Assembly: GCA_030628225.1 (NCBI GenBank)
Contig: DAOVRJ010000003.1
Location: forward strand, 1-32,153
Direction: 5' to 3'
Source of the DNA: Candidatus Zixiibacteriota bacterium
Lineage (GTDB): Bacteria > SM23-81
Length of the DNA stretch: 32,153 nt
This document shows, in pieces, positions 8,497-25,410 of this stretch. The position numbers and the translations under genes were made by a program. The notes below the pieces were generated by a model that saw only the letters and a list, made by a program, of their open reading frames with translations, had not been told where the DNA came from and made no database searches. Position 1 is the stretch's first letter; every line of letters starts with the position of its first letter.

Positions 8497-9126
8497 TTAC
8501 CTCGTTTTCATTGAGACCTGCAGAGTACCGATCCGATGCATTATTTCCTGGACAACCTTTCGATACGCCGATTTATCCTTTTCAAGGTTTTCCATCCAGC
8601 TCCATGGAATTGGAGGACCGAAGCTAACTGTCAACCTGCTTTTCCTTAAGATTGTCTTACGCAACTGATTAGAGCCACTGATATATGCCGGTACTATTGA
8701 AACCCGTCCTTCTATAGCAAGTTTTCCCACTCCCGGTTTCCCATTGAGCAGAGTGTTTCCAGGCCCTCTGGTGCCCTCGGGAAATAGCAAAACGGCATTG
8801 CCTTCCCTGAGAAGTTCGGCGATTCGCCGGAGAGCAGCCCGATCTGCCCTACCCCTGCTGACCGGAACCGTATTGTAAGCCCTTATCACACGGGCAAAAA
8901 GGCGATTTCTAAACAGTTCTTTCTTGCCCAGATAGTAAACCTCCCTCGGAATGGCCGCTCCAACTACGGGAGGATCCATCAAACTGATGTGATTGCTGGC
9001 TATGATGATCGCTCCATCGGATGGGATCATCTCCTGACCTTGCACCCGAAAGCCAAATAGAGCCTTTAAAACCGCATTTATAAATCGCCAGGACCATTTA
9101 TACAAAGGCCTCATGGCTAATCCCAT
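8497..9126 (-). CDS. plsC: 1-acyl-sn-glycerol-3-phosphate acyltransferase
   Basis: ASNHISLMDPPVVGAA (HX4D-type motif as NHISLMD), LFPEGTRGPG; placed between cmk and rpsA. Confidence 0.9.
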   Translation of the reverse strand: MGLAMRPLYKWSWRFINAVLKALFGFRVQGQEMIPSDGAIIIASNHISLMDPPVVGAAIPREVYYLGKKELFRNRLFARVIRAYNTVPVSRGRADRAALRRIAELLREGNAVLLFPEGTRGPGNTLLNGKPGVGKLAIEGRVSIVPAYISGSNQLRKTILRKSRLTVSFGPPIPWSWMENLEKDKSAYRKVVQEIMHRIGTLQVSMKTR

Positions 9127-9138
9127 TAAGTTTATGGG

Positions 9139-9840
9139 CTAGGTGTCTGCCGGCAGCTTGTCCAGAATTTCTTTAAGAACCTCTTCGATGGACAGCTTTG
9201 TGGTGTCTATGACAATGGCATTTTCCGCCTGCCGCAGAGGAGCCACCTCTCTGCGGCTGTCGTCGCGATCCCTTTGGCGCATCTGGCTCTCCAGTTGTTC
9301 CATGTCCACATCGCCACCCCAGCTTTTCATCTGCAGATAGCGTCGCCTCGCCCTTTCATGGACTGCAGCGGTGATGTAAAATTTGACATCGGCATCGGGC
9401 AAAACGACCGTGCCTATATCTCGCCCCTCCATTACTACACCGCTTACACGAGCCAGACCTCTTTGCTTTTCTACCATAGATGCGTGCACATTCGGGTAGG
9501 CTGAAATTCGCGATGAAGCCATGTCGATCTGTGGAGTGCGAATTTCTTCGGTTACATCCTGTTCATCAATCAACACACGATACGCCCATTTATCCTGGGG
9601 ATCAGTTTTTAGAAAGCGAATCTGGCACTCTTGAGCCAATTGCCCCAGGCCATCCTGGTTTTCCACATTCACACCCTTTTGCTCAGCGAGGACGGCCAGG
9701 GCTCGGTACATGGCCCCGGTATCCACGAAGAGGCATCCTAAAGTTTCGGCCAGAAGCATCCCTACAGTTCCTTTTCCACTGCTGGCCGGCCCATCAATGG
9801 CCACTATAAGCCGGGAATGACTCATTGCTGTTTCCCCCAC
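9139..9840 (-). CDS. cmk: Cytidylate kinase
   Basis: IVAIDGPASSGKGTVGMLLAETLGCLFVDTGAMYRALA; VMEGRDIGTVVLPDADVKFYITA; RRYLQ...RDRDDSRREVAPLR. Confidence 0.96.
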   Translation of the reverse strand: MGETAMSHSRLIVAIDGPASSGKGTVGMLLAETLGCLFVDTGAMYRALAVLAEQKGVNVENQDGLGQLAQECQIRFLKTDPQDKWAYRVLIDEQDVTEEIRTPQIDMASSRISAYPNVHASMVEKQRGLARVSGVVMEGRDIGTVVLPDADVKFYITAAVHERARRRYLQMKSWGGDVDMEQLESQMRQRDRDDSRREVAPLRQAENAIVIDTTKLSIEEVLKEILDKLPADT

Positions 9841-14486: not shown

Positions 14487-16403
14487 TCAATCCCAAAACT
14501 CCCAGGAAAGCCCTCCATAAAAAGCCCTGCCAGGAAGAGGATAGCCCGAGCGAAGAAAATATTTCTCATCTCCTAAGTTCTCTGCCAACAGATAAATCTG
14601 GAAATTACTGAGTATACGCGCGGTCACCTTTCCGTTGTACAGGAAGTTTGAGTTCAGTTTCTGTCCCTCATTAGCGTCTGCGTACCGGACCCCCATATAT
14701 TCAATGCCCAACCTGGCAGTTACATCCAGCTCATTTCGAATCAGATTCATGCCATACTGCACATAGCCAGCTATCTTATGCTGCGGTTGATAGGGCAAGC
14801 GCCTGTCCAGTAAATCGTCTTTAGCATCCAGGAAAGCATATGTCAATGAAGACTGCAGTCGATCAAGATACTTCACAGTGACCTGGCCCTCAAAACCCTT
14901 AATGATGGCCTGCGACTTGTTCACGGGCATCCAGCAGCCGTAGACATAGCTTTCGTCCACATTGTCCCATTGTATGAGATCGCTAACTTCCCGGCGGAAA
15001 AAGCATCCGTTCCCGGTGAACAGGCCGGCTTGTATCCGCCCTCCGATCTGAAAAGCCACCGCCTTTTCGGGCTTAACGTCTACGTTGCCGCTTTCCCCGT
15101 AATCTAACTTTCCGTCCAGATCATAATCGATATTGCTCTTAGGCCAATAGAGATCATTGAAGGTCGGGGTCCTGTATGAGCGCCTAAAGGAGGTAAAAAG
15201 GGAAGCGTGGTTTCCAGCCAACCAGGTGATGGTCAGGTCGGGGCAGAACTGATCGTCGAATTTCTCATGGTAGTCATATCGACCGGCGAGCCTAAACTTT
15301 ACATTACTACGTAATGTCAGTTCTTCCTGAAGGAACATGGCCCCGCGATACAGGTCGTGGCAGCCGTTTTCCGAGGAATCAAGGCGTCTGTTCTGGATCT
15401 CCCCCCCAACCGTCATTTTATGGGCGCTGCCAAAGGAAAAGCTATTTTGGAGTTCGATTCCGTAAATCCATCGCCTGTGTTTTGCCTCGGTGAAGAAATC
15501 AGGGTTTTTATACTCCTGTCGGCTGTAGTTTCGGTAGATGATTGAGCGAAAGCTATTTTCTAAGCCCTTACAGAACTGCAGGGTGATGGCCTGATTCCAG
15601 TTTTGATCCTCCTGGTGTGCGTTTGGAGTGGGCATTATGTCCATGCCGGGAACGCCAAGATCTGCATCATAGAGATGTGTTCTATATGTAATAAGCCCCT
15701 TTTCGCCCAAGGAACAGCTGAGCTTACCGGTCATATGCCGTCCCTCGAAGTCGCTGTTATCTCTGAAGCCAGCGGATTTTATTGATGAACCCATGAGGTT
15801 GAGACCAAAACGCTGACCAAACAGTCGAGCAAATCGAGCGGCGACTTTTTCCAGATCGCCAGCCCCTTTCTGGTATTTTATATGCGTTAAAGGCCTTTCA
15901 TAGATGGTGGATCGAGTAATGATGTTGACTACGCCCCCCAGAGCATCTGCCCCGTACAGAGAAGAAACCGCCCCTCGAACCACCTCTATACTCTGCACAT
16001 CTTCCAGGGGAATAAGATTCAGATCAAACCCACCGAGTTGAATATCGTTGATTGGTACCCCGTCTATCATGATCAATACCTGTCCGGAAGTGCTGCCGCG
16101 CAAGCTCAGACTCGCATTTTGTCCTATGCTCCCATAAGTTCCCACACTGACGCCGGGCAATAGTTTTAGAACATCACCTAAGTGTTGAGCAGAAGATTGT
16201 TCGATATCGGCGCTGGTCAGAACATCCACATTGGCGTCGCTCTCCCATAGGGTATGAGGCGTCCTTGTGGCCGTGACCACTATTGGTTGAAGCTGATAGT
16301 CGACCTGCTCCCCCGCTGTTGCGATAGAGGCCTGATCAGAATTCGCCCCTGCGGTGGAGGTTGATAGAGCCAAGACCAATGAGAACATCAACGGAAGACG
16401 CAT
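14487..16403 (-). CDS. TonB-dependent outer-membrane receptor (BtuB-like)
   Basis: Signal peptide; TonB-box-like PIVVTATRTP; plug domain (LGDVLKLLPGVSVGTYGSIGQNASLSLRGSTSGQVLIMIDGVPIND...VVRGAVSSLYGADALGGVVNIITR); C-terminal LAENLGDEKYFLRSGYPLPGRAFYGGLSWEF. Confidence 0.93.
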   Translation of the reverse strand: MRLPLMFSLVLALSTSTAGANSDQASIATAGEQVDYQLQPIVVTATRTPHTLWESDANVDVLTSADIEQSSAQHLGDVLKLLPGVSVGTYGSIGQNASLSLRGSTSGQVLIMIDGVPINDIQLGGFDLNLIPLEDVQSIEVVRGAVSSLYGADALGGVVNIITRSTIYERPLTHIKYQKGAGDLEKVAARFARLFGQRFGLNLMGSSIKSAGFRDNSDFEGRHMTGKLSCSLGEKGLITYRTHLYDADLGVPGMDIMPTPNAHQEDQNWNQAITLQFCKGLENSFRSIIYRNYSRQEYKNPDFFTEAKHRRWIYGIELQNSFSFGSAHKMTVGGEIQNRRLDSSENGCHDLYRGAMFLQEELTLRSNVKFRLAGRYDYHEKFDDQFCPDLTITWLAGNHASLFTSFRRSYRTPTFNDLYWPKSNIDYDLDGKLDYGESGNVDVKPEKAVAFQIGGRIQAGLFTGNGCFFRREVSDLIQWDNVDESYVYGCWMPVNKSQAIIKGFEGQVTVKYLDRLQSSLTYAFLDAKDDLLDRRLPYQPQHKIAGYVQYGMNLIRNELDVTARLGIEYMGVRYADANEGQKLNSNFLYNGKVTARILSNFQIYLLAENLGDEKYFLRSGYPLPGRAFYGGLSWEFWD

Positions 16404-16484: not shown

Positions 16485-16513
16485 AATATGGGCTACCTGA
16501 GAGCATTTGTCAA
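16485..16513 (-). promoter_or_regulatory. Sigma70-type promoter for the 14487-16403 TonB receptor
   Basis: Minus strand TTGACA (16513-16508), 17-nt spacer, CATATT (16490-16485); AGGAG upstream of the ATG. Confidence 0.65.
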
Positions 16514-16627: not shown

Positions 16628-16662
16628 ACGGGCAAAATGCCTTGAGACACTTTGCCCGTGAA
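16628..16662 (-). terminator. Intrinsic terminator downstream of the beta-propeller gene
   Basis: Minus-strand CGGGCAAA ... TTTGCCCG followed by TTCTTTTG. Confidence 0.65.
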
Positions 16663-16721: not shown

Positions 16722-18050
16722 TCATTTCATATTGCCCAAGCTTTTGTCAAAGATACCTACCCGGTTGGAATCTTCGTTCTCTTCAGCTCCCTTTCGTGCT
16801 CGCACCAGATAATACCGGGACTCGGTCGGTGGCGTTGGGTCCGTCCATTTATCTTCTGTAGTAGAATCTGCGGGAGTTGTGGGCGCAAAGTTAGGATCTA
16901 GGTCATCGCTATAAATGCGATATATATCCACCCCGTTCTTGGCGGTCCAGGACAGTTGAAATGTCCCTTTGTCCTTGATGATCGTCAAATCATCTATTGG
17001 GCCCATGTATGCTTCCATTATGGTCATATCTTGAGCTCCATCGCCGAAGCCATAGGTAGCCATAACAGTATCCCCGTGGGGGCAAAACCTCTGCACGGCA
17101 TCGTCCATGTAATTGTTGACATAAATCACGTCCTCGATCTGATCATAAAACAGGCGCATTGCCCCATCTCCTACCCGGATAGGATTGATACTGTTATGAT
17201 AAACAGTGTCGGCGTAAATATCGTAAGTGTACAGAAATCCGTTGACAAAATCGCCCCAGTCGCAGAGATAAACCTGGCCATCGATCGTGACGATGATATC
17301 TCCGGGAGCTCCGCCAATTTCCACGGTGTCAACCACAGCTGGCCCACCGTCGGGACCGGCCCAACGGTCAATAATGCAGATCTTTCCGGCTTCGCTGACA
17401 TAATCGCCGGTGCAGACCACGTAAACTCTGCCATCCGGTCCCAGAGCAAGGTCCTGGGCATTTATGGGCACCGCCAGGGTTGTGGTCACCGTATCGGCGC
17501 TGACGTCGATGACGGAAACTGATGAGGCATCGTATTTCGCCAGAGAGGTGTCCACACCAGAGTTGGTCACAAAGGCGGTGTCTCCCAACACCAGAACCCC
17601 CTGAGGTCTCGGTCCCACGGGAATATCTTTCTCTATGATGCTGTTCTCCAGATCCACCACAGATACCGTGTTGAGCAGCCAATTGGTCACATATGCCCGT
17701 TCGTCGCTAACGAAGTCCATGAACCAGGGATTGCTTGTATCGGCCAAAGCAATTCTCTTCTCCACCTGGTCACAGAGGGGATTGATGATCATGATCTCCG
17801 GCGGATCGGAATTGACCACGTAGACCCTTTTCTGGTGAGCGATCACCTGATTGGGAACATCACCCAGGGCCAAAACATCGTTGGTGATCTGGCTGTTTTC
17901 CAGATTCATCTTAGAAAGTGTTTTGGCCGACCCATTCATCACGTAAAGAGTTCTGGGGACATCAGCGCCGTTTGCATTTGAAGTGGCAATAAATAATATG
18001 ATATAAATCATCATGAACATCGTTCTCATCATGATACCTTTCATGATCAT
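16722..18050 (-). CDS. Secreted YncE-like beta-propeller protein with C-terminal FN3-like domain
   Basis: Signal peptide (MFMMIYIILFIATSNANGA); repeated propeller blades (LYVMNGSAKTLSKMNLENSQITNDVLALGDVPNQVI; AYVTNWLLNTVSVVDLENSIIEKDIPVGPRPQGVLV...); C-terminal FQLSWTAKNGVDIYRIYSDD...SRYYLVRARKG. Confidence 0.85.
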   Translation of the reverse strand: MIMKGIMMRTMFMMIYIILFIATSNANGADVPRTLYVMNGSAKTLSKMNLENSQITNDVLALGDVPNQVIAHQKRVYVVNSDPPEIMIINPLCDQVEKRIALADTSNPWFMDFVSDERAYVTNWLLNTVSVVDLENSIIEKDIPVGPRPQGVLVLGDTAFVTNSGVDTSLAKYDASSVSVIDVSADTVTTTLAVPINAQDLALGPDGRVYVVCTGDYVSEAGKICIIDRWAGPDGGPAVVDTVEIGGAPGDIIVTIDGQVYLCDWGDFVNGFLYTYDIYADTVYHNSINPIRVGDGAMRLFYDQIEDVIYVNNYMDDAVQRFCPHGDTVMATYGFGDGAQDMTIMEAYMGPIDDLTIIKDKGTFQLSWTAKNGVDIYRIYSDDLDPNFAPTTPADSTTEDKWTDPTPPTESRYYLVRARKGAEENEDSNRVGIFDKSLGNMK

Positions 18051-18186
18051 GCTCCCTTTTTGGTCATGTTCACGCTCTATGTCATGAGAATAATAGCGGA
18101 TTTATCAGGAATTTCAAATCAAACGAGCTATCGGCTTTTTCTTGGCTTCCATGTGTTATCTCCCCCCTTTCAGTTCCACATGACCT

Positions 18187-20100
18187 TCAGCGGATGAGGA
18201 TCATTTTACGCGTCTCGGTTAGTTCGCCTATCTTTAAACTACAGAAATAGATACCGCTGCTAACCGGCCTGCCCGTATAATCCGTTCCATCCCACTTTAT
18301 GTGCTGTTGACCGGCATTCCTGATTCCGTCGATGAGAGTTCTCACCTTCTGTCCCAAAAGATTGAATACAGTGAGTTTGATGGATTCTCGACTTGGAACA
18401 AAATACTGAATGATGGTTTCAGCATTAAAAGGGTTGGGGTAATTCTGCCAGAGTTTAAACGCAACGGGCTGAACCATTGGATCCTCTTCGTTCACCAGCG
18501 TCGTGGATGAGCTGTTCACAGCCACGATGGCGTCCAGGTCAAAATCGCCATTGTACAAACCCTCCTGATAGATGTCGCCCAGATCAGTGATTCTAACATA
18601 AGTCGCCCATTCCAGCCCCAAATCTGCTAAATCAAAATGATCCCCACCGGACACCGTGGGATCTGTGGGATTGAGGTTGTCATCCGTGGGAGTCACCCCG
18701 GCTAGTCCAGACATGTCTGTGGTGTCGTAGGGGAATTGATACCAGTTTTGTCCATTTTGACTGACGGATACAATGCCCGCCTCCATAAACACAGTACCGA
18801 AGATGGAGATGAACGCATTTTCAAATACGGTGAAATCCACGCCATGGCCATCGACGATGGCATTGTCGATGAACCTGAGGATAATTTCGCCTCCGTGTCC
18901 CAGGGATAAGAGTTCCTCTGGCTTGCAGCTTGGACTGTTAGGATTTATGCTCGGATCAGGATCAGGTGGACCGAGAACGTTATTCGGGAAGTAGTTATAC
19001 CCGAATTCGCTCCAATTCTCCCCGGGCGTGAAGCTGACCACCTCGTCTGCCCAGGGATCTGAACTCATGATCGGCTCCACTATGGCCATATCTTGAGCTC
19101 CCTCTCCAAAATTGTACGTTGCCAGCACCGTATCTGCATCTACATCAAATTTCTGGACGGTATCATCGCCAAAATTAGATATCCAAAGGGCATCTTCTTG
19201 TCCATCATATAGCAGGCGCATAGCACCATAGCCTACCTGTATAGGATTATCCACACCGCGAATAACAGTATCTGCATAGGCATCATACACGTAAAGATGA
19301 CCGTGAGGCTCTGCGCCAAAGGAGGTACAATAACCCTTCCCAGAAGGGGTAATCATGATGTCTCCGGGCATGCCCCCTATTTCAATGGTGTCCACCACGG
19401 CCGGTGTCCAATCGGGTCCGGCCCAGCGATCGATGACCACGATACGGCCGGGGATATCGTCGTAATTGCCAGTACACATGACGTGAATCCGGCCATCGGG
19501 GGCAAGAGCCAAATTTTGAGGATTGGTGAGAACCTCAAGATTTTGAATGATGGTATCTTGCAGGACGTCTATGATGGAGACCGTCGAAGGGCTGTAATGA
19601 GGATATCCGCCGGTGTTGGTGATGAAGGCTTGGTTTTCAACGATCAGGATTCCCTGAGGTCCAATTCCCACTGGTATATCTTTTAGGATAGTTCTGTTTT
19701 CCACATCGACAACAGAAACGCTATTGGCAATTAAATTCGTCACATACGCTTTATTTGCTCCTACAAAGGCCATGTAGTATGGATTGCTGCCCTGGGCTAA
19801 GGAAATGATCACGGGTTCCTGACCATCATCTCTGGGATCGATGATCATGATGTCGTTGGTGCCGGAATTTACCACGTAGAGCATGTCGTTGAAGCTCAGT
19901 ATTTGATTGGGCCATTGGCCAATGGTGAGGAAATCATTTACGATGACCTCCGTCTCCAAATTCAATTTGGAAAGAGTTCTGCCCAGTCCGTTGATGATAT
20001 AAAGAGTCCTGGGCTCATCGGCAAATGTAATATTGCCAAGCGAAACCAGCGCTAGACCCACAAAGAGCAAAATGCTTGTAAAAATTCGCTGCCTGATCAT
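18187..20100 (-). CDS. Secreted YncE-like beta-propeller, extra beta-rich (discoidin-like?) domain, T9SS/FlgD-type C-terminal domain
   Basis: Signal peptide; blades paralogous to the neighbouring protein (LYIINGLGRTLSKLNLETEVIVNDFLTIGQWPNQIL); unique middle domain WADEVVSFTPGENWSEFGYNYFPNNVLGPPDP...GHGGEIILRFIDNAIVDGHGVDFTVFENAF; C-terminus LWQNYPNPFNAETIIQYFVPSRESIKLTVFNLLGQKVRTLIDG...GTDYTGRPVSSGIYFCSLKIGELTETRKMILIR. Confidence 0.88.
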   Translation of the reverse strand: MIRQRIFTSILLFVGLALVSLGNITFADEPRTLYIINGLGRTLSKLNLETEVIVNDFLTIGQWPNQILSFNDMLYVVNSGTNDIMIIDPRDDGQEPVIISLAQGSNPYYMAFVGANKAYVTNLIANSVSVVDVENRTILKDIPVGIGPQGILIVENQAFITNTGGYPHYSPSTVSIIDVLQDTIIQNLEVLTNPQNLALAPDGRIHVMCTGNYDDIPGRIVVIDRWAGPDWTPAVVDTIEIGGMPGDIMITPSGKGYCTSFGAEPHGHLYVYDAYADTVIRGVDNPIQVGYGAMRLLYDGQEDALWISNFGDDTVQKFDVDADTVLATYNFGEGAQDMAIVEPIMSSDPWADEVVSFTPGENWSEFGYNYFPNNVLGPPDPDPSINPNSPSCKPEELLSLGHGGEIILRFIDNAIVDGHGVDFTVFENAFISIFGTVFMEAGIVSVSQNGQNWYQFPYDTTDMSGLAGVTPTDDNLNPTDPTVSGGDHFDLADLGLEWATYVRITDLGDIYQEGLYNGDFDLDAIVAVNSSSTTLVNEEDPMVQPVAFKLWQNYPNPFNAETIIQYFVPSRESIKLTVFNLLGQKVRTLIDGIRNAGQQHIKWDGTDYTGRPVSSGIYFCSLKIGELTETRKMILIR

Positions 20101-20146
20101 CGATGTCCCTCCTTTTCTGATGGATGTTGGCAGTGAATTTACTTCA

Positions 20147-22414
20147 TCAAAACGGGTTCTTTATGGATAATCCTAAACGCCACTCCCTGGGTGGAAGAGG
20201 CATGTCTTCAAGGATCTCATGCCGCTCATCGGTGATGTTGAAAACCGAGAACTTGCACTTTAGTTCCGCCGAGGACACACGAAAGCTCCAGGACACATCT
20301 GTGTCCAACACCTTGTACTGAGGCATCTCGATGGTGTTTGATTCCGTCACAAAGCGTCGGCCAACATTCCGATAATGAATACCCCCCTGCCAGGGATCAA
20401 ATTTAAGATTAATGTTGGCTTTGAATGAATCCTGAGGTTTGTAAGGTAGTATTTTATTGTGCGTCGTCCTCCGATTGCTCTTGTTTATAGGTTTGAGATG
20501 TGAATAGCTGAAAAGCACAGTTACGAATTCCTCGGGAGAGCACAACTCCATTGAATATTCTTGCCCTGTTATTTCTGCATCTGTGTTGAACGGGGAGAAA
20601 ACCTCAAAATTTCCCAGCCTCCATACGATTAGATCATCGATATTGTATCGAAACGCCGTTATCTGCCCCGCTATGTCCCCCCAAGTCGTTAATCGCCAGC
20701 CAAAGCTGGCATCGACATTCAAACTCTTTTCTGGAAGAAGATCGGGTTTCCCCTTAATTCTGAAATCCTGATAAAACAGATCGGCAAAAGTGGGCACACG
20801 AAAAGAACGGGCTAGATTGGACCGGAGATAAAAACGATTACCATCCCCCACTGAAATCAAAAACCCCACTCCCGGACTCCATTGATGCTCAACCCGTTTG
20901 ATCTCGGCATTGTCAATTACAATTTCATCGTAGCGAATGGCAGGTGTAACAATGACTCGCCAGGACAACCATGAAAAATGGTGCTTCCATTCCTGATGCA
21001 AGAGCACACCGTGTGATCGATCTTGAGCCTGACCGATGGTAGTGTTCTTTCCGGTGAGCAGATCGCTATCGCGATACCGCAGCAACCGACCGGTGTAGCC
21101 GGCGGTACATCGAAACCAATGGAGTGGACTGTACTGAACAGTGGAGTTGATCGCCGATGTCTTCAAGATAGCTTCGTAATGATATGGAGGATAGCGCCGA
21201 TATCTCAGCTCGGCATGCGCAGGCCATAAATTAGAGTTTTCGTTGCCAGACTCGCAGTAATCTAAATCGATGGTAACCTGGAGATGATCAATATTGTAAA
21301 CATACTGGGTCCCCAGAATGTCTCGCCTCGAGTTAGCCCGGGCATAAGCCGTCCAGTAGTTGATTTTTCCCGGCAGCCCTCTGTTGGAAATCACTCGCCC
21401 TCCCTTCACACAGATACGATGTCTTCCCCACCCCAGGCTCACATGCCCAAAAAGATTCCGCGATAAGAGATCCGCGTTTATTCTATTCTCCGGGATTGTC
21501 CTATCGTCGGGCGTCTCATAGCTGTAGGGAAAATCCCCCTGGCTTTGCAGATAGTTGTAGGAGACAAAGCAACCGAACCTCCCGTAGCTGCACGACCAAC
21601 TTGGCTCAATCTGGTACAGTTGCCATGAGCCCGTCATACAGTTTAGCTGGGCATTATTTTCGAATTTGTCTCTGGTGATGATGTTCAATACACCACCTAT
21701 TGCTCCCCCACCGAATCTTGGTGAAGTACCTCCTCTGTAAACCTCGATTTTCTCAATAATATTTATAGGCACTTCGGAGAGATCGACCTCGCCCATGAGC
21801 GCGTCGTTAAGCGGCATGCCATCCAACAGAACCAGGACCTGATTGGTCGGGCTGCCTCGAATTGAGATCTTCTTTCCGTTTCCCAATCCTCCCGTGTTTT
21901 GAATTTCCACTCCTGGAACCCCTTGCAACAGTTCTCCAACAGACTGGAAATTAGACTCTTCTATCTTTCTACGGGTTATGGTAAACACATCTGTCGTGGG
22001 GATATCTGTCCATCTTTCGGCGAAAACCTCTATTTCTGCTATAGGAATCAGTTTTGGGCTGAGTTGGTAATTTACATGTACGGGTTGATCTCGGAACACT
22101 GTTATATCCGAGATCGTCAGAGTCTCATACCCAATATAGCTGGCCGATACTGTATAAATACCAACGAGCAAGTTCTCCAACTGGAAATAACCATGCTCAT
22201 CGGTGATCGCACCTATTCCCTTGCCGTGGACCACCACATTAGCTCCCAAAAGGGGATTGCCAGTATCTATATCTGTCACCAACCCGCAGATTTTAGCGGT
22301 AGACTGTGCCCATGCTGTTGAGCACAGTAACAGCGCGAATACGCACAAGATCGTTGTATTGCGAGTCAACTGAGGTGTCCTTCCAAATAGAAAAGGCGAA
22401 ATACTACGGCTCAA
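20147..22414 (-). CDS. btuB: TonB-dependent receptor with N-terminal CarboxypepD_reg-like domain, B12-riboswitch-controlled (BtuB-like); actual start probably TTG near 22369
   Basis: ICGLVTDIDTGNPLLGANVVVHGKGIGAITDEHGYFQLENLLVGIYTVSASYIGYET; plug (VGELLQGVPGVEIQNTGGLGNGKKISIRGSPTNQVLVLLDGMPLNDALMGEVDLSEVPINIIEKIEVYRGGTSPRFGGGAIGGVLNIITRD); downstream of a cobalamin riboswitch. Internal TTG (MTRNTTILCVFALLLCSTAWAQS) has GGAAGGA just upstream. Confidence 0.9.
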   Translation of the reverse strand: MSRSISPFLFGRTPQLTRNTTILCVFALLLCSTAWAQSTAKICGLVTDIDTGNPLLGANVVVHGKGIGAITDEHGYFQLENLLVGIYTVSASYIGYETLTISDITVFRDQPVHVNYQLSPKLIPIAEIEVFAERWTDIPTTDVFTITRRKIEESNFQSVGELLQGVPGVEIQNTGGLGNGKKISIRGSPTNQVLVLLDGMPLNDALMGEVDLSEVPINIIEKIEVYRGGTSPRFGGGAIGGVLNIITRDKFENNAQLNCMTGSWQLYQIEPSWSCSYGRFGCFVSYNYLQSQGDFPYSYETPDDRTIPENRINADLLSRNLFGHVSLGWGRHRICVKGGRVISNRGLPGKINYWTAYARANSRRDILGTQYVYNIDHLQVTIDLDYCESGNENSNLWPAHAELRYRRYPPYHYEAILKTSAINSTVQYSPLHWFRCTAGYTGRLLRYRDSDLLTGKNTTIGQAQDRSHGVLLHQEWKHHFSWLSWRVIVTPAIRYDEIVIDNAEIKRVEHQWSPGVGFLISVGDGNRFYLRSNLARSFRVPTFADLFYQDFRIKGKPDLLPEKSLNVDASFGWRLTTWGDIAGQITAFRYNIDDLIVWRLGNFEVFSPFNTDAEITGQEYSMELCSPEEFVTVLFSYSHLKPINKSNRRTTHNKILPYKPQDSFKANINLKFDPWQGGIHYRNVGRRFVTESNTIEMPQYKVLDTDVSWSFRVSSAELKCKFSVFNITDERHEILEDMPLPPREWRLGLSIKNPF

Positions 22415-22422
22415 TAAAAACC

Positions 22423-22452
22423 CCCAACTTCCGAGAATGAAAGCTGGGGTCG
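22423..22452 (-). terminator. Intrinsic terminator, riboswitch expression platform before btuB
   Basis: Minus strand CCCCAGCTT-(loop)-AAGTTGGGG followed by GTTTTTATT, between the B12 aptamer and btuB. Confidence 0.8.
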
Positions 22453-22494
22453 ATACGTATCAAGAACCCAAACCTCGCCCACGGAGGTCTTTGT

Positions 22495-22672
22495 GGATCT
22501 TCACTGGAGACGGCAGGTTTCCTGGCTATGGGCATCGGACCTACTCGCCACGCCTTCCCGTCCCCCTTAATGGAAACAGTGGCAATTGTGGCTTTCGTAG
22601 CCCATCACAGTAGCGGGGCTGCGACGGATTTTCACCGTCTTCCCTATTGGCCCTTGCGGGCACCGCCTTCGT
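22495..22672 (-). promoter_or_regulatory. Cobalamin riboswitch (B12 box) upstream of btuB/propeller operon
   Basis: Minus strand GGTGCCCGCAAGGGCCAATAGGGAAGACGGTGAAAATCCGTCGCAGCCCCGCTACTGTGATG ... GCCAGGAAACCTGCCGTCTCC. Confidence 0.95.
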
Positions 22673-22713
22673 GTTGTATTCGCAAAGAGCAGACTTAAGA
22701 AGTGATATCTGGC

Positions 22714-23235
22714 TCAGCAATCATCTGGAGCTGTCCAGCGAGGTCTTATCTTGTATATTAATGGCCCGATCACGGTAAAGATCATCAAATTCGAGACCAT
22801 GTGTATAATCGAAAACATCATGCCCGCGACCAGAACAGCCGACAACTTTGAGGCCATTCCAAAGGATATGGCCATTGCCACGTTGGTAACGATGTCATAA
22901 AACAGCGTACATGCCAAACCACAAAGCGCCATCTTCGCCCAAGTAAATCCCCTGTCCAGCCAAGGCTGAATCGCTCCCCCCACTGCTCCGATGGTGGCCA
23001 TTCCGCCCACTTGAGCCAAGGCCACGGGAAGTACCGGAGCACCCATGGGGTTCAGGGTGGTGAACAAGCCCATGGAGATGATTCCCACTATGAAGCCGCC
23101 CTTCGATCCCAGGATGTAGCCGGCCATGAAGATCACCAAGGTGACAAGCTCCACGTTGGGCACATGCACCAACGAAAACCCCAGGGCTACAGCCAGGGCC
23201 ACAAAGGTGGCGGAGAGGGCAAAATCTCGGATCAC
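22714..23235 (-). CDS. Membrane protein resembling an ECF transporter S-component; candidate cobalamin uptake (CbrT-like role)
   Basis: Small hydrophobic protein MRDFALSATFVALAVALGF...FMAGYILGSKGGFIVGIISMGLFTTLNPMG...GAVGGAIQPWLDRG, typical of ECF S-components; own B12 riboswitch. GTG start. Confidence 0.75.
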   Translation of the reverse strand: MIRDFALSATFVALAVALGFSLVHVPNVELVTLVIFMAGYILGSKGGFIVGIISMGLFTTLNPMGAPVLPVALAQVGGMATIGAVGGAIQPWLDRGFTWAKMALCGLACTLFYDIVTNVAMAISFGMASKLSAVLVAGMMFSIIHMVSNLMIFTVIGPLIYKIRPRWTAPDDC

Positions 23236-23249
23236 GTTGAGTGTCCCAT
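23232..23249 (-). CDS. Possible 5-codon leader peptide (MGHST*) overlapping the GTG start of the ECF-S gene
   Basis: ATG at 23249 with GGGAGGA 7 nt upstream; its TGA overlaps the GTG start at 23235 (GTGA). Confidence 0.35.
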   Translation of the reverse strand: MGHST

Positions 23250-23276
23250 AAAAAAATCCTCCCGTCGGGGAAGATC
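23250..23276 (-). terminator. Second of two tandem hairpins in the ECF-S leader; its 3' arm contains an SD-like GGGAGGA
   Basis: Minus strand TCTTCCC-CGAC-GGGAGGA followed by TTTTTTT. Confidence 0.65.
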
Positions 23277-23302
23277 AAAAAAGCCCGACCTTCAAAGTCG
23301 GG
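23275..23302 (-). terminator. First of two tandem hairpins in the ECF-S leader (intrinsic terminator)
   Basis: Minus strand CCCGACTTTGAAGGTCGGGC followed by TTTTTTGATC. Confidence 0.8.
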
Positions 23303-23344
23303 ACTAGAAGACGAAACCTTCCCGCGAAGGCATTTTTTCGCTGG

Positions 23345-23545
23345 ACGCAGGCAGGTCTCCTGGCTCTCGGCAAAAGAAGCGCCATCCTTCCCAGGGAAAA
23401 ACTAACTCCCCAGTGGCCTACAATATATCGCTTCTGAGGTTCCGGCCTGAAAACAGCCGGACCTCCTGCCGATCACAGTGGCGGGGCCGCTCGGTTTTCC
23501 ACCGTTTTCCCTATTCTCCGCTCCTACGGCACCTGCGCCTTCATG
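23345..23545 (-). promoter_or_regulatory. Cobalamin riboswitch upstream of the ECF-S-like gene
   Basis: Minus strand GCAGGTGCCGTAGGAGCGGAGAATAGGGAAAACGGTGGAAAACCGAGCGGCCCCGCCACTGTGATCGG ... GCCACTGG ... GGGAAGGATGGC ... GCCAGGAGACCTGCC. Confidence 0.96.
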
Positions 23546-23558
23546 TTTCTTCCGCGCT

Positions 23559-23587
23559 AATATAGCGTAGGATCTTTCGCTTGTCAA
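23559..23587 (-). promoter_or_regulatory. Sigma70-type promoter driving the first cobalamin riboswitch
   Basis: Minus strand TTGACA (23587-23582), exactly 17-nt spacer, TATATT (23564-23559), immediately upstream of the aptamer. Confidence 0.85.
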
Positions 23588-24459: not shown

Positions 24460-25410
24460 TCAGGGTCTGGGTATGGCCAGATCATCCGTCCCCGGGGCGG
24501 ACATAGTTATCTCAGGGGAATTTTCCTGGATAAGCTCATGGATGATCTGGGCGTATTTGACCTTTTCCCGCGCCCAATCGGCCATCATCTGAGAGTTCGT
24601 CCACGGTTTGTAGAGTGCTCCTGGGCCCGCTCCACAACCCGGGCCGGGTTCTACCTTGAAGTAACAGGGAGCCGCCACCCGGGCCATGTCTGGTGCCTCA
24701 TAGAAGCGCATGTAACCACCAAAGGATTCGGTGATGATTATGTGAACATCCAGAGGGATATCGGTAACCTGTCTTATGTTGGCGAATTGAGCCAGGGTAA
24801 GGTCGGCCACAGGGTTGAAACTTCCGGCGCCCAGGGATTGCAGGAGTCTTCCACCGGCAGCATTGGCATGTCCGCAGTAAATGGAAACCTTGAAGGTGAT
24901 ATCTTCGGGCAAATCCCCTTTTTTCTTCATCTCGTTCAGCAGCCAGAGAAGCCCCTCGTCGATGACCAGGAAACCGCGGAAGCCCAGATCTATTGCCCTG
25001 AAGATATCGGTGATGACCTGGCGGAGTTGATCGCTGCCCCGGTAGCGAAGACCAGACAATCCGCCCTCAGGGGTGACCAGCTGTCTGCCTATGTCCCAGG
25101 AGGCCCGGGGACCCGGGGTAAGGATAACCTCCAGCTTTGCCTCGGCGGCCATCTGAGCAAAATCTCTCAGCTCGGCTTTGTCCAGCAGGGTTGCTCCCAT
25201 AACCACGGAGATCGCCCGATGGATGGGAACCTTACGCTTGTTCATCTCGTCAATGAGAGCCTCCAGCACGACAGGACGTTCCACTCCGGATATCTCCATA
25301 CGATACCAGGCGCCATCGGGGAATCGTTTGGTGCTGGTGGGAAGATCCCGGGCATCACGACCGGGAATTCCGTGCTTCTCCATCAATTTGCTTACATCGT
25401 CCATCTTCAT
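24460..25410 (-). CDS. Peptidase-U32-like / TIM-barrel protein of unknown function
   Basis: Intact 316-aa ORF in the run: GSDQLRQVITDIFRAIDLGFRGFLVIDEGLLWLLNEM...FKVSIYCGHANAAGGRLLQSLGAGSFNPVADLTLAQFANIRQVTDIPLDVHI. Family call is a weak recognition. Confidence 0.55.
   Translation of the reverse strand: MKMDDVSKLMEKHGIPGRDARDLPTSTKRFPDGAWYRMEISGVERPVVLEALIDEMNKRKVPIHRAISVVMGATLLDKAELRDFAQMAAEAKLEVILTPGPRASWDIGRQLVTPEGGLSGLRYRGSDQLRQVITDIFRAIDLGFRGFLVIDEGLLWLLNEMKKKGDLPEDITFKVSIYCGHANAAGGRLLQSLGAGSFNPVADLTLAQFANIRQVTDIPLDVHIIITESFGGYMRFYEAPDMARVAAPCYFKVEPGPGCGAGPGALYKPWTNSQMMADWAREKVKYAQIIHELIQENSPEITMSAPGTDDLAIPRP

Follow-up and report, generated by a model that had tools for sequence, protein, structure and literature searches.

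A probable vitamin B12 scavenging operon with BtuG-like propellers in a Candidatus Zixiibacteriota bacterium

The stretch of DNA analysed here (hereafter the window: all 32,153 nucleotides of contig DAOVRJ010000003.1, our C147, from a Candidatus Zixiibacteriota bacterium) carries on its minus strand a set of genes which we read, with a probability of roughly 0.87, as an operon for scavenging vitamin B12 (corrinoids) in a probable B12 auxotroph. It encodes an energy-coupling factor (ECF) S-component, a TonB-dependent receptor of the BtuB type (TBDT1) and, in tandem, two secreted beta-propeller proteins, propA and propB. The gene order, the riboswitches, the homology to BtuG, BtuH, BtuB and CbrT and the conserved linkage of such genes in many phyla were all computed directly. 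We propose that at low intracellular adenosylcobalamin both riboswitches would permit transcription through their terminators. PropA would then be exported and fixed at the cell surface by the type IX secretion system, as perhaps would propB; each propeller would bind corrinoid and serve as a lid on the receptor, the BtuH-like domain of propA providing a second capture site. Uptake of corrinoid through the receptor would be powered by TonB, and the inner membrane would then be crossed by way of a CbrT-type ECF transporter with the shared EcfAA'T module, standing in for BtuFCD. Of this scheme, we infer corrinoid binding, the receptor-propeller complex and the order of handover.

A preliminary description of the window, made from its letters alone, had taken the two propellers for functional equivalents of BtuG, probably outside Bacteroidota, and had called for a structural comparison. 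The AlphaFold model of propA has a mean predicted local distance difference test score (pLDDT) of 84.6, reaching about 94 in the propeller. When the full model was compared with the PDB using Foldseek, the top match was BtuG1 (8blw_B, E 6.7e-20), in an alignment covering both domains, and BtuG structures, several of them solved with cobalamin, made up 16 of the 17 top matches; hydrazine synthase, Lp49 and YncE rank lower. Profile searches of the PDB gave a comparable picture, BtuG structures dominating the matches after the archaeal surface-layer protein 1l0q, and for propB these include 8ptf, 8ptd and 8blw_B. In the reverse direction, a 232-residue fragment of Bacteroides thetaiotaomicron BtuG1 was searched against 26 whole genomes, mostly picked for having such propellers, so that the search shows which protein matches and not how frequent it is. 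The best match was one of the surveyed propellers in all 18 genomes giving any match; in the window genome, propB and propA came out best. The Pfam model PF16819 (DUF5074, cut-off 27.2) scores the BtuG1 fragment at 32.0 bits and propB just under the cut-off at 24.4 bits, and matches 9 of 28 relatives at E<0.001. The structure and reverse searches, together with the recurrent linkage to riboswitches and BtuB described below, support the proposed equivalence: propA and propB appear to be BtuG homologues and are likely functional equivalents. They are not classical BtuG lipoproteins, because these require by definition a lipid anchor, which neither protein has.

The domain that follows the propeller in propA gave no match in a Pfam search. 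When it is modelled alone (pLDDT 70.6), BtuG1 8blw_B once more comes first among PDB folds (E 2e-5), with CBM32/discoidin domains next; the CBM32 of AlyQ is among the matches, and BtuH itself is modestly similar to AlyQ (PMC8941943). A 38-sequence profile of the domain retrieved a single PDB match at E values up to 10, residues 428-498 of 8blw_B, which lie in its H domain. Since two different methods, each weak, agree on 8blw_B, we relate the domain to BtuH, which in BtuG1 forms a C-terminal domain of about 250 residues (PMC10404256). PropA is thus read, from its predicted domains, as a putative BtuG-BtuH fusion with a type IX tail. The same domain also matches the NCBIfam model of the LIC_13355 family lipoproteins in six of six members (best E 3.6e-13, below the cut-off). 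Leptospira LIC_13355 has been studied for binding activities; the terms cobalamin, B12 and riboswitch did not turn up in a text search of the paper concerned, but a role connected with B12 is worth considering for this family.

How general the association is was examined by scanning GTDB genomes for the propA middle domain, which yielded at least 278 loci. The best 80 come from KSB1, Calditrichota, Gemmatimonadota, Fermentibacteria, Ignavibacteria, Kapabacteria, Myxococcota, Sumerlaeota, Binatia and others. A cobalamin riboswitch lies upstream on the same strand in 71 of these 80 loci, a propeller gene is present in 65 and a receptor in 54, and six of the nine loci lacking a riboswitch begin no more than 3.3 kb from a contig end. 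A regular expression for the B12 box recovered 10 of 15 known riboswitches, and a covariance model was used in its place; Rfam's own model upheld the riboswitch in 16 of 18 rechecked loci, the other two (L059 and L070) being contig-end cases. A receptor accompanied by a propeller-BtuH fusion is found in L059, L061-L065 and L067-L072, such fusion loci belonging to KSB1, Calditrichota and Gemmatimonadota. A separate survey of 287 genomes used a propeller model. Among propellers scoring above 180 bits, those that served to build the model excluded, 17 of 19 have a cobalamin riboswitch upstream, and linkage is mixed at lower scores: a 100-bit cut parts linked from unlinked propellers moderately (Fisher p 0.02), the association being strong only in high scorers. 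The motif NPQ...CTG occurs in 26 of 35 linked and 0 of 16 unlinked propellers, as a description and not a test, the motif having been derived from the linked set. The linkage of riboswitch, BtuB and propeller thus recurs in many families, which contradicts the outcome that would have told against BtuG, a different family with no BtuB co-occurrence. It also extends likely BtuG equivalents beyond Bacteroidota, to the phylum of the window and, as fusions, to KSB1, Calditrichota and Gemmatimonadota. Among about 300 relatives requested, the window's phylum is represented by three genomes only (G001, G002 and G003), which argues against a phylum as large as Bacteroidota, from which many more would be expected.

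Several of the surveyed loci display other arrangements. In L093, L091, L080, L105, L129 and others, the BtuH-like gene is accompanied by a receptor and two propellers of differing similarity; the weaker-scoring one may correspond to BtuK, and BT1487 (4r5o, BtuK2) also matches as a propeller. In L041 (8902-9711), L123 (1110-1964) and L136 (8875-9684) the BtuH-like gene comes straight after the riboswitch, with no receptor or propeller nearby, and in each case the next gene encodes a protein whose N-terminus resembles that of a type IV prepilin. L042 encodes, between riboswitch and BtuH-like gene, a small secreted protein (8645-9160) that belongs to no Pfam family; a DUF4430/transcobalamin reading of this open reading frame was rejected, no Pfam match being found. 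L061, titled as an Actinomycetota metagenome-assembled genome, carries a KSB1-type receptor and a propeller-BtuH-type IX fusion, and is possibly a mis-binned contig.

Features of the window are collected in Table 1. All the elements of the preliminary description, from the promoter through two B12 riboswitches, ECF-S gene, receptor and two propellers to a terminator near 16.65 kb, are present on the minus strand where it placed them. That description overlooked the BtuH-like domain and type IX tail of propA as well as a second BtuB-type receptor (TBDT2) past the terminator. Both riboswitches score above the RF00174 gathering score of 31.5, and no others were found in the whole 2.34-Mb genome. 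The hairpin in each leader is the probable expression platform of its riboswitch. Promoter-like sites are no commoner in the window than in shuffled sequence (14 against 14.3 expected), so the promoter call leans on position. Upstream of TBDT2 no riboswitch was found, even with relaxed thresholds. Elsewhere in the window, positions 24460-25410 encode a 316-residue protein that has no Pfam or NCBIfam match and adjoins genes for aldehyde dehydrogenase, homoserine dehydrogenase and indolepyruvate oxidoreductase.

Table 1. Features of the putative B12 scavenging operon and its downstream neighbour, in window coordinates
Feature	Position	Strand	Remarks
Promoter-like site, TTGACA-17-TATATT	23559..23587	(-)	consensus match, position-based; 8 nt upstream of aptamer 1
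Cobalamin riboswitch 1	23333..23551	(-)	RF00174, 78.3 bits, E 6.8e-18
Terminator hairpin, leader 1	23284..23302	(-)	-12.1 kcal/mol, folding z -2.5
ECF S-component gene, CbrT-like (B12)	22714..23235	(-)	PDB 6fnp; PF07155/PF12822 under cut-off
Cobalamin riboswitch 2	22495..22681	(-)	RF00174, 102.3 bits, E 8.9e-25
Terminator hairpin, leader 2	22422..22449	(-)	-18.6 kcal/mol, folding z -4.5
TBDT1, TonB-dependent receptor, BtuB type	20147..22414	(-)	N-terminal CarboxypepD_reg domain; TIGR01779 best family
propA, whole (637 residues)	18187..20100	(-)	BtuG-like propeller, BtuH-like domain, type IX secretion tail
propA propeller domain, residues 28-345	19066..20019	(-)	
propA BtuH-like domain, residues 347-533	18502..19062	(-)	no Pfam family
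propA type IX secretion C-terminal tail, residues 554-634	18199..18441	(-)	PF18962 E 2.2e-6; TIGR04183 E 1.6e-10
propB, BtuG-like propeller	16722..18050	(-)	FN3-like C-terminus (by eye)
Intrinsic terminator, end of operon	16628..16659	(-)	-22.1 kcal/mol, folding z -6.2
Promoter-like site before second receptor	16485..16513	(-)	
TBDT2, second BtuB-type receptor	14487..16403	(-)	directly beyond operon terminator

For both receptors the best NCBIfam family is that of TonB-B12 receptors (E 6.9e-49 for TBDT1 and 3.1e-58 for TBDT2), below its curated cut-off in each case. The PDB matches of TBDT1 include BtuB structures, among them 8blw_A, and TBDT1 is the presumed partner of the propellers. The ECF-S protein, whose gene has a cobalamin riboswitch directly upstream, found as its sole PDB match 6fnp (E 1e-6), the B12 transporter ECF-CbrT (PMC5997447); no other S-component was matched. 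In the nearest relative (G001), a riboswitch and an ECF-S gene of 62% identity are followed directly by a receptor that shares 59% identity with TBDT2, and in G002 a riboswitch-ECF-S-receptor unit and a receptor-propeller unit stand on separate contigs. The simplest reading of these arrangements would be that in the window a riboswitch-receptor-propeller module was placed within an older riboswitch-ECF-S-BtuB unit. Besides the window, L037, L048, L065, L072 and L181 combine ECF-S, receptor and propeller in one locus. A second ECF S-component-like protein is encoded elsewhere in the window's own genome (8108-8611 of L049, G000:C292), consistent with a shared ECF module.

The rest of the genome, an assembly of 306 contigs estimated to be 92% complete, fits import by this route. 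No PF01497 protein (BtuF) was found in it and no FecCD protein (BtuC) above cut-off; weak FecCD matches below the cut-off were rejected as BtuC and read as other permeases. Because CbiC was not found, in this or any other of the 28 genomes searched, the organism probably does not make the corrin ring, and five matches to B12-binding domains are present in its genome. Since BtuF, BtuC and CbiC were not found and a CbrT-like ECF-S protein recurs in such operons, the inner membrane is likely crossed by ECF import. The suggestion of an ECF-type importer in place of BtuFCD, already made from the window alone, is thereby strengthened.

Both propellers carry type I signal peptides, and no lipobox or lipoprotein export signal was found in either. 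The type IX tail of propA has a counterpart in the genome, which encodes the type IX protein SprA. The nearest relatives of propB, in L036 and L037, do carry a type IX tail, and propB itself may be periplasmic, judging by its export signals. A variant of our model would take this location as the basis of a relay, propA being the type IX-displayed surface lid and capture protein and propB a periplasmic carrier that brings corrinoid from receptor to ECF transporter, replacing BtuF; we regard this division of labour as doubtful.

A number of observations weigh against the B12 scavenging operon as we propose it. The identity between BtuG1 and the propellers it retrieved in the reverse search is low, 25-30% over the matched region, and generic propellers such as 1l0q are also high-scoring. 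For the BtuH-like domain, the fold match to 8blw_B is gappy (TM 0.48, root-mean-square deviation 12.3 A) and the similarity in sequence, at E 0.0039, is marginal. PropB lacks both a type IX tail and a lipobox, hence any surface-anchoring signal. The only trace of EcfT is a fragment next to truA where a contig ends, and the absences noted above are supportive only, given the completeness and fragmentation of the assembly. The propeller scores raise the question whether the operon, while serving B12 uptake, encodes propellers of the generic surface or S-layer YVTN/YncE type, structural or adhesive and not binding corrinoid. YVTN propellers are common, 1l0q is the first or second match in several searches and the YNCE Pfam model is matched by 13 of the 28 family members. 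But a generic origin accounts poorly for the predominance of BtuG among the fold matches, for the return of the same proteins in the reverse BtuG1 search, for their repeated occurrence, across many families, next to BtuB and a cobalamin riboswitch and for the propeller-BtuH domain order common to propA and BtuG1, and we hold it to be improbable. Even less credible is that receptor and propellers import a different substrate whose uptake follows B12 status, for example a cobalt chelate or another tetrapyrrole: cobalamin riboswitches also control cobalt transporters, substrates of TonB-dependent receptors are not safely assignable from sequence and both receptors fall below the BtuB equivalog cut-off, but BtuB is the best family for both, the ECF-S protein matches CbrT only and, with B12-binding enzyme domains present and no CbiC, imported cobalt could not substitute for the vitamin. 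Corrinoid scavenging by BtuG-like propellers therefore stays our preferred reading.

BtuG has been reported as exclusive to Bacteroidetes, from 313 human gut genomes searched (PMC6143338). Here we find BtuG-like propellers, accompanied by BtuB-type receptors and cobalamin riboswitches, in KSB1, Calditrichota, Gemmatimonadota, Fermentibacteria and others, and surface B12 capture appears to be a general strategy among bacteria that have an outer membrane and are unable to make the corrin ring. Moreover the BtuH-like domain, widespread, without a Pfam family and strongly tied to riboswitches, offers a large set of candidate B12-binding proteins.

The closest known system is BtuG1 (BtuGH, BT_1490) with BtuB1 of B. 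thetaiotaomicron (PDB 8blw; PMC10404256). Like propA, BtuG1 consists of a seven-bladed propeller followed by a BtuH-type domain; its gene lies next to that of a BtuB-type receptor in a locus under riboswitch control, and it is the best structure match to propA. BtuG1 is lipid-anchored, whereas propA combines a type I signal with a type IX tail, and their sequence identity is about 30% or less; at the inner membrane, B. thetaiotaomicron uses BtuFCD where an ECF transporter is proposed for the window. BtuG2 and BtuG3 (PDB 8bn0, 8bmx, 8okv, 8p97; PMC6143338, PMC10404256) share the propeller fold (TM 0.74-0.80 by target length) and also adjoin BtuB under riboswitch control, but the window has two propellers in tandem and comes from a non-Bacteroidetes phylum. 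BtuH2 (PMC8941943) is related to the middle domain of propA via the H domain of BtuG1, by fold and weak sequence similarity, and both resemble CBM32 domains such as that of AlyQ; unlike propA, it has N-terminal Ig-like domains. The residues of BtuH2 that contact B12 are Tyr510, Trp511, Trp577, His476, Asn399 and Gln333. BtuJ/DUF4465 (PF14717; PMC12751083, PMC13398666) is another beta-jellyroll B12-capture family, of several clades and linked to BtuB loci. We tried this identity for the propA domain and rejected it, since the domain has no match to the Pfam model and no DUF4465 occurs in 143 relatives. ECF-CbrT, the single relative that the window ECF-S protein retrieved from the PDB, transports B12 without BtuFCD; the CbrT studied came from Lactobacillus delbrueckii, a bacterium with no outer membrane, whereas the window ECF-S gene stands among genes for BtuB-type receptors and BtuG-like propellers. 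We found in the open-access literature no report that joins BtuB to a type IX-anchored BtuG-BtuH protein and an ECF importer outside Bacteroidota. Such a combination, if true, would make a full B12 route into a two-membrane cell without BtuFCD.

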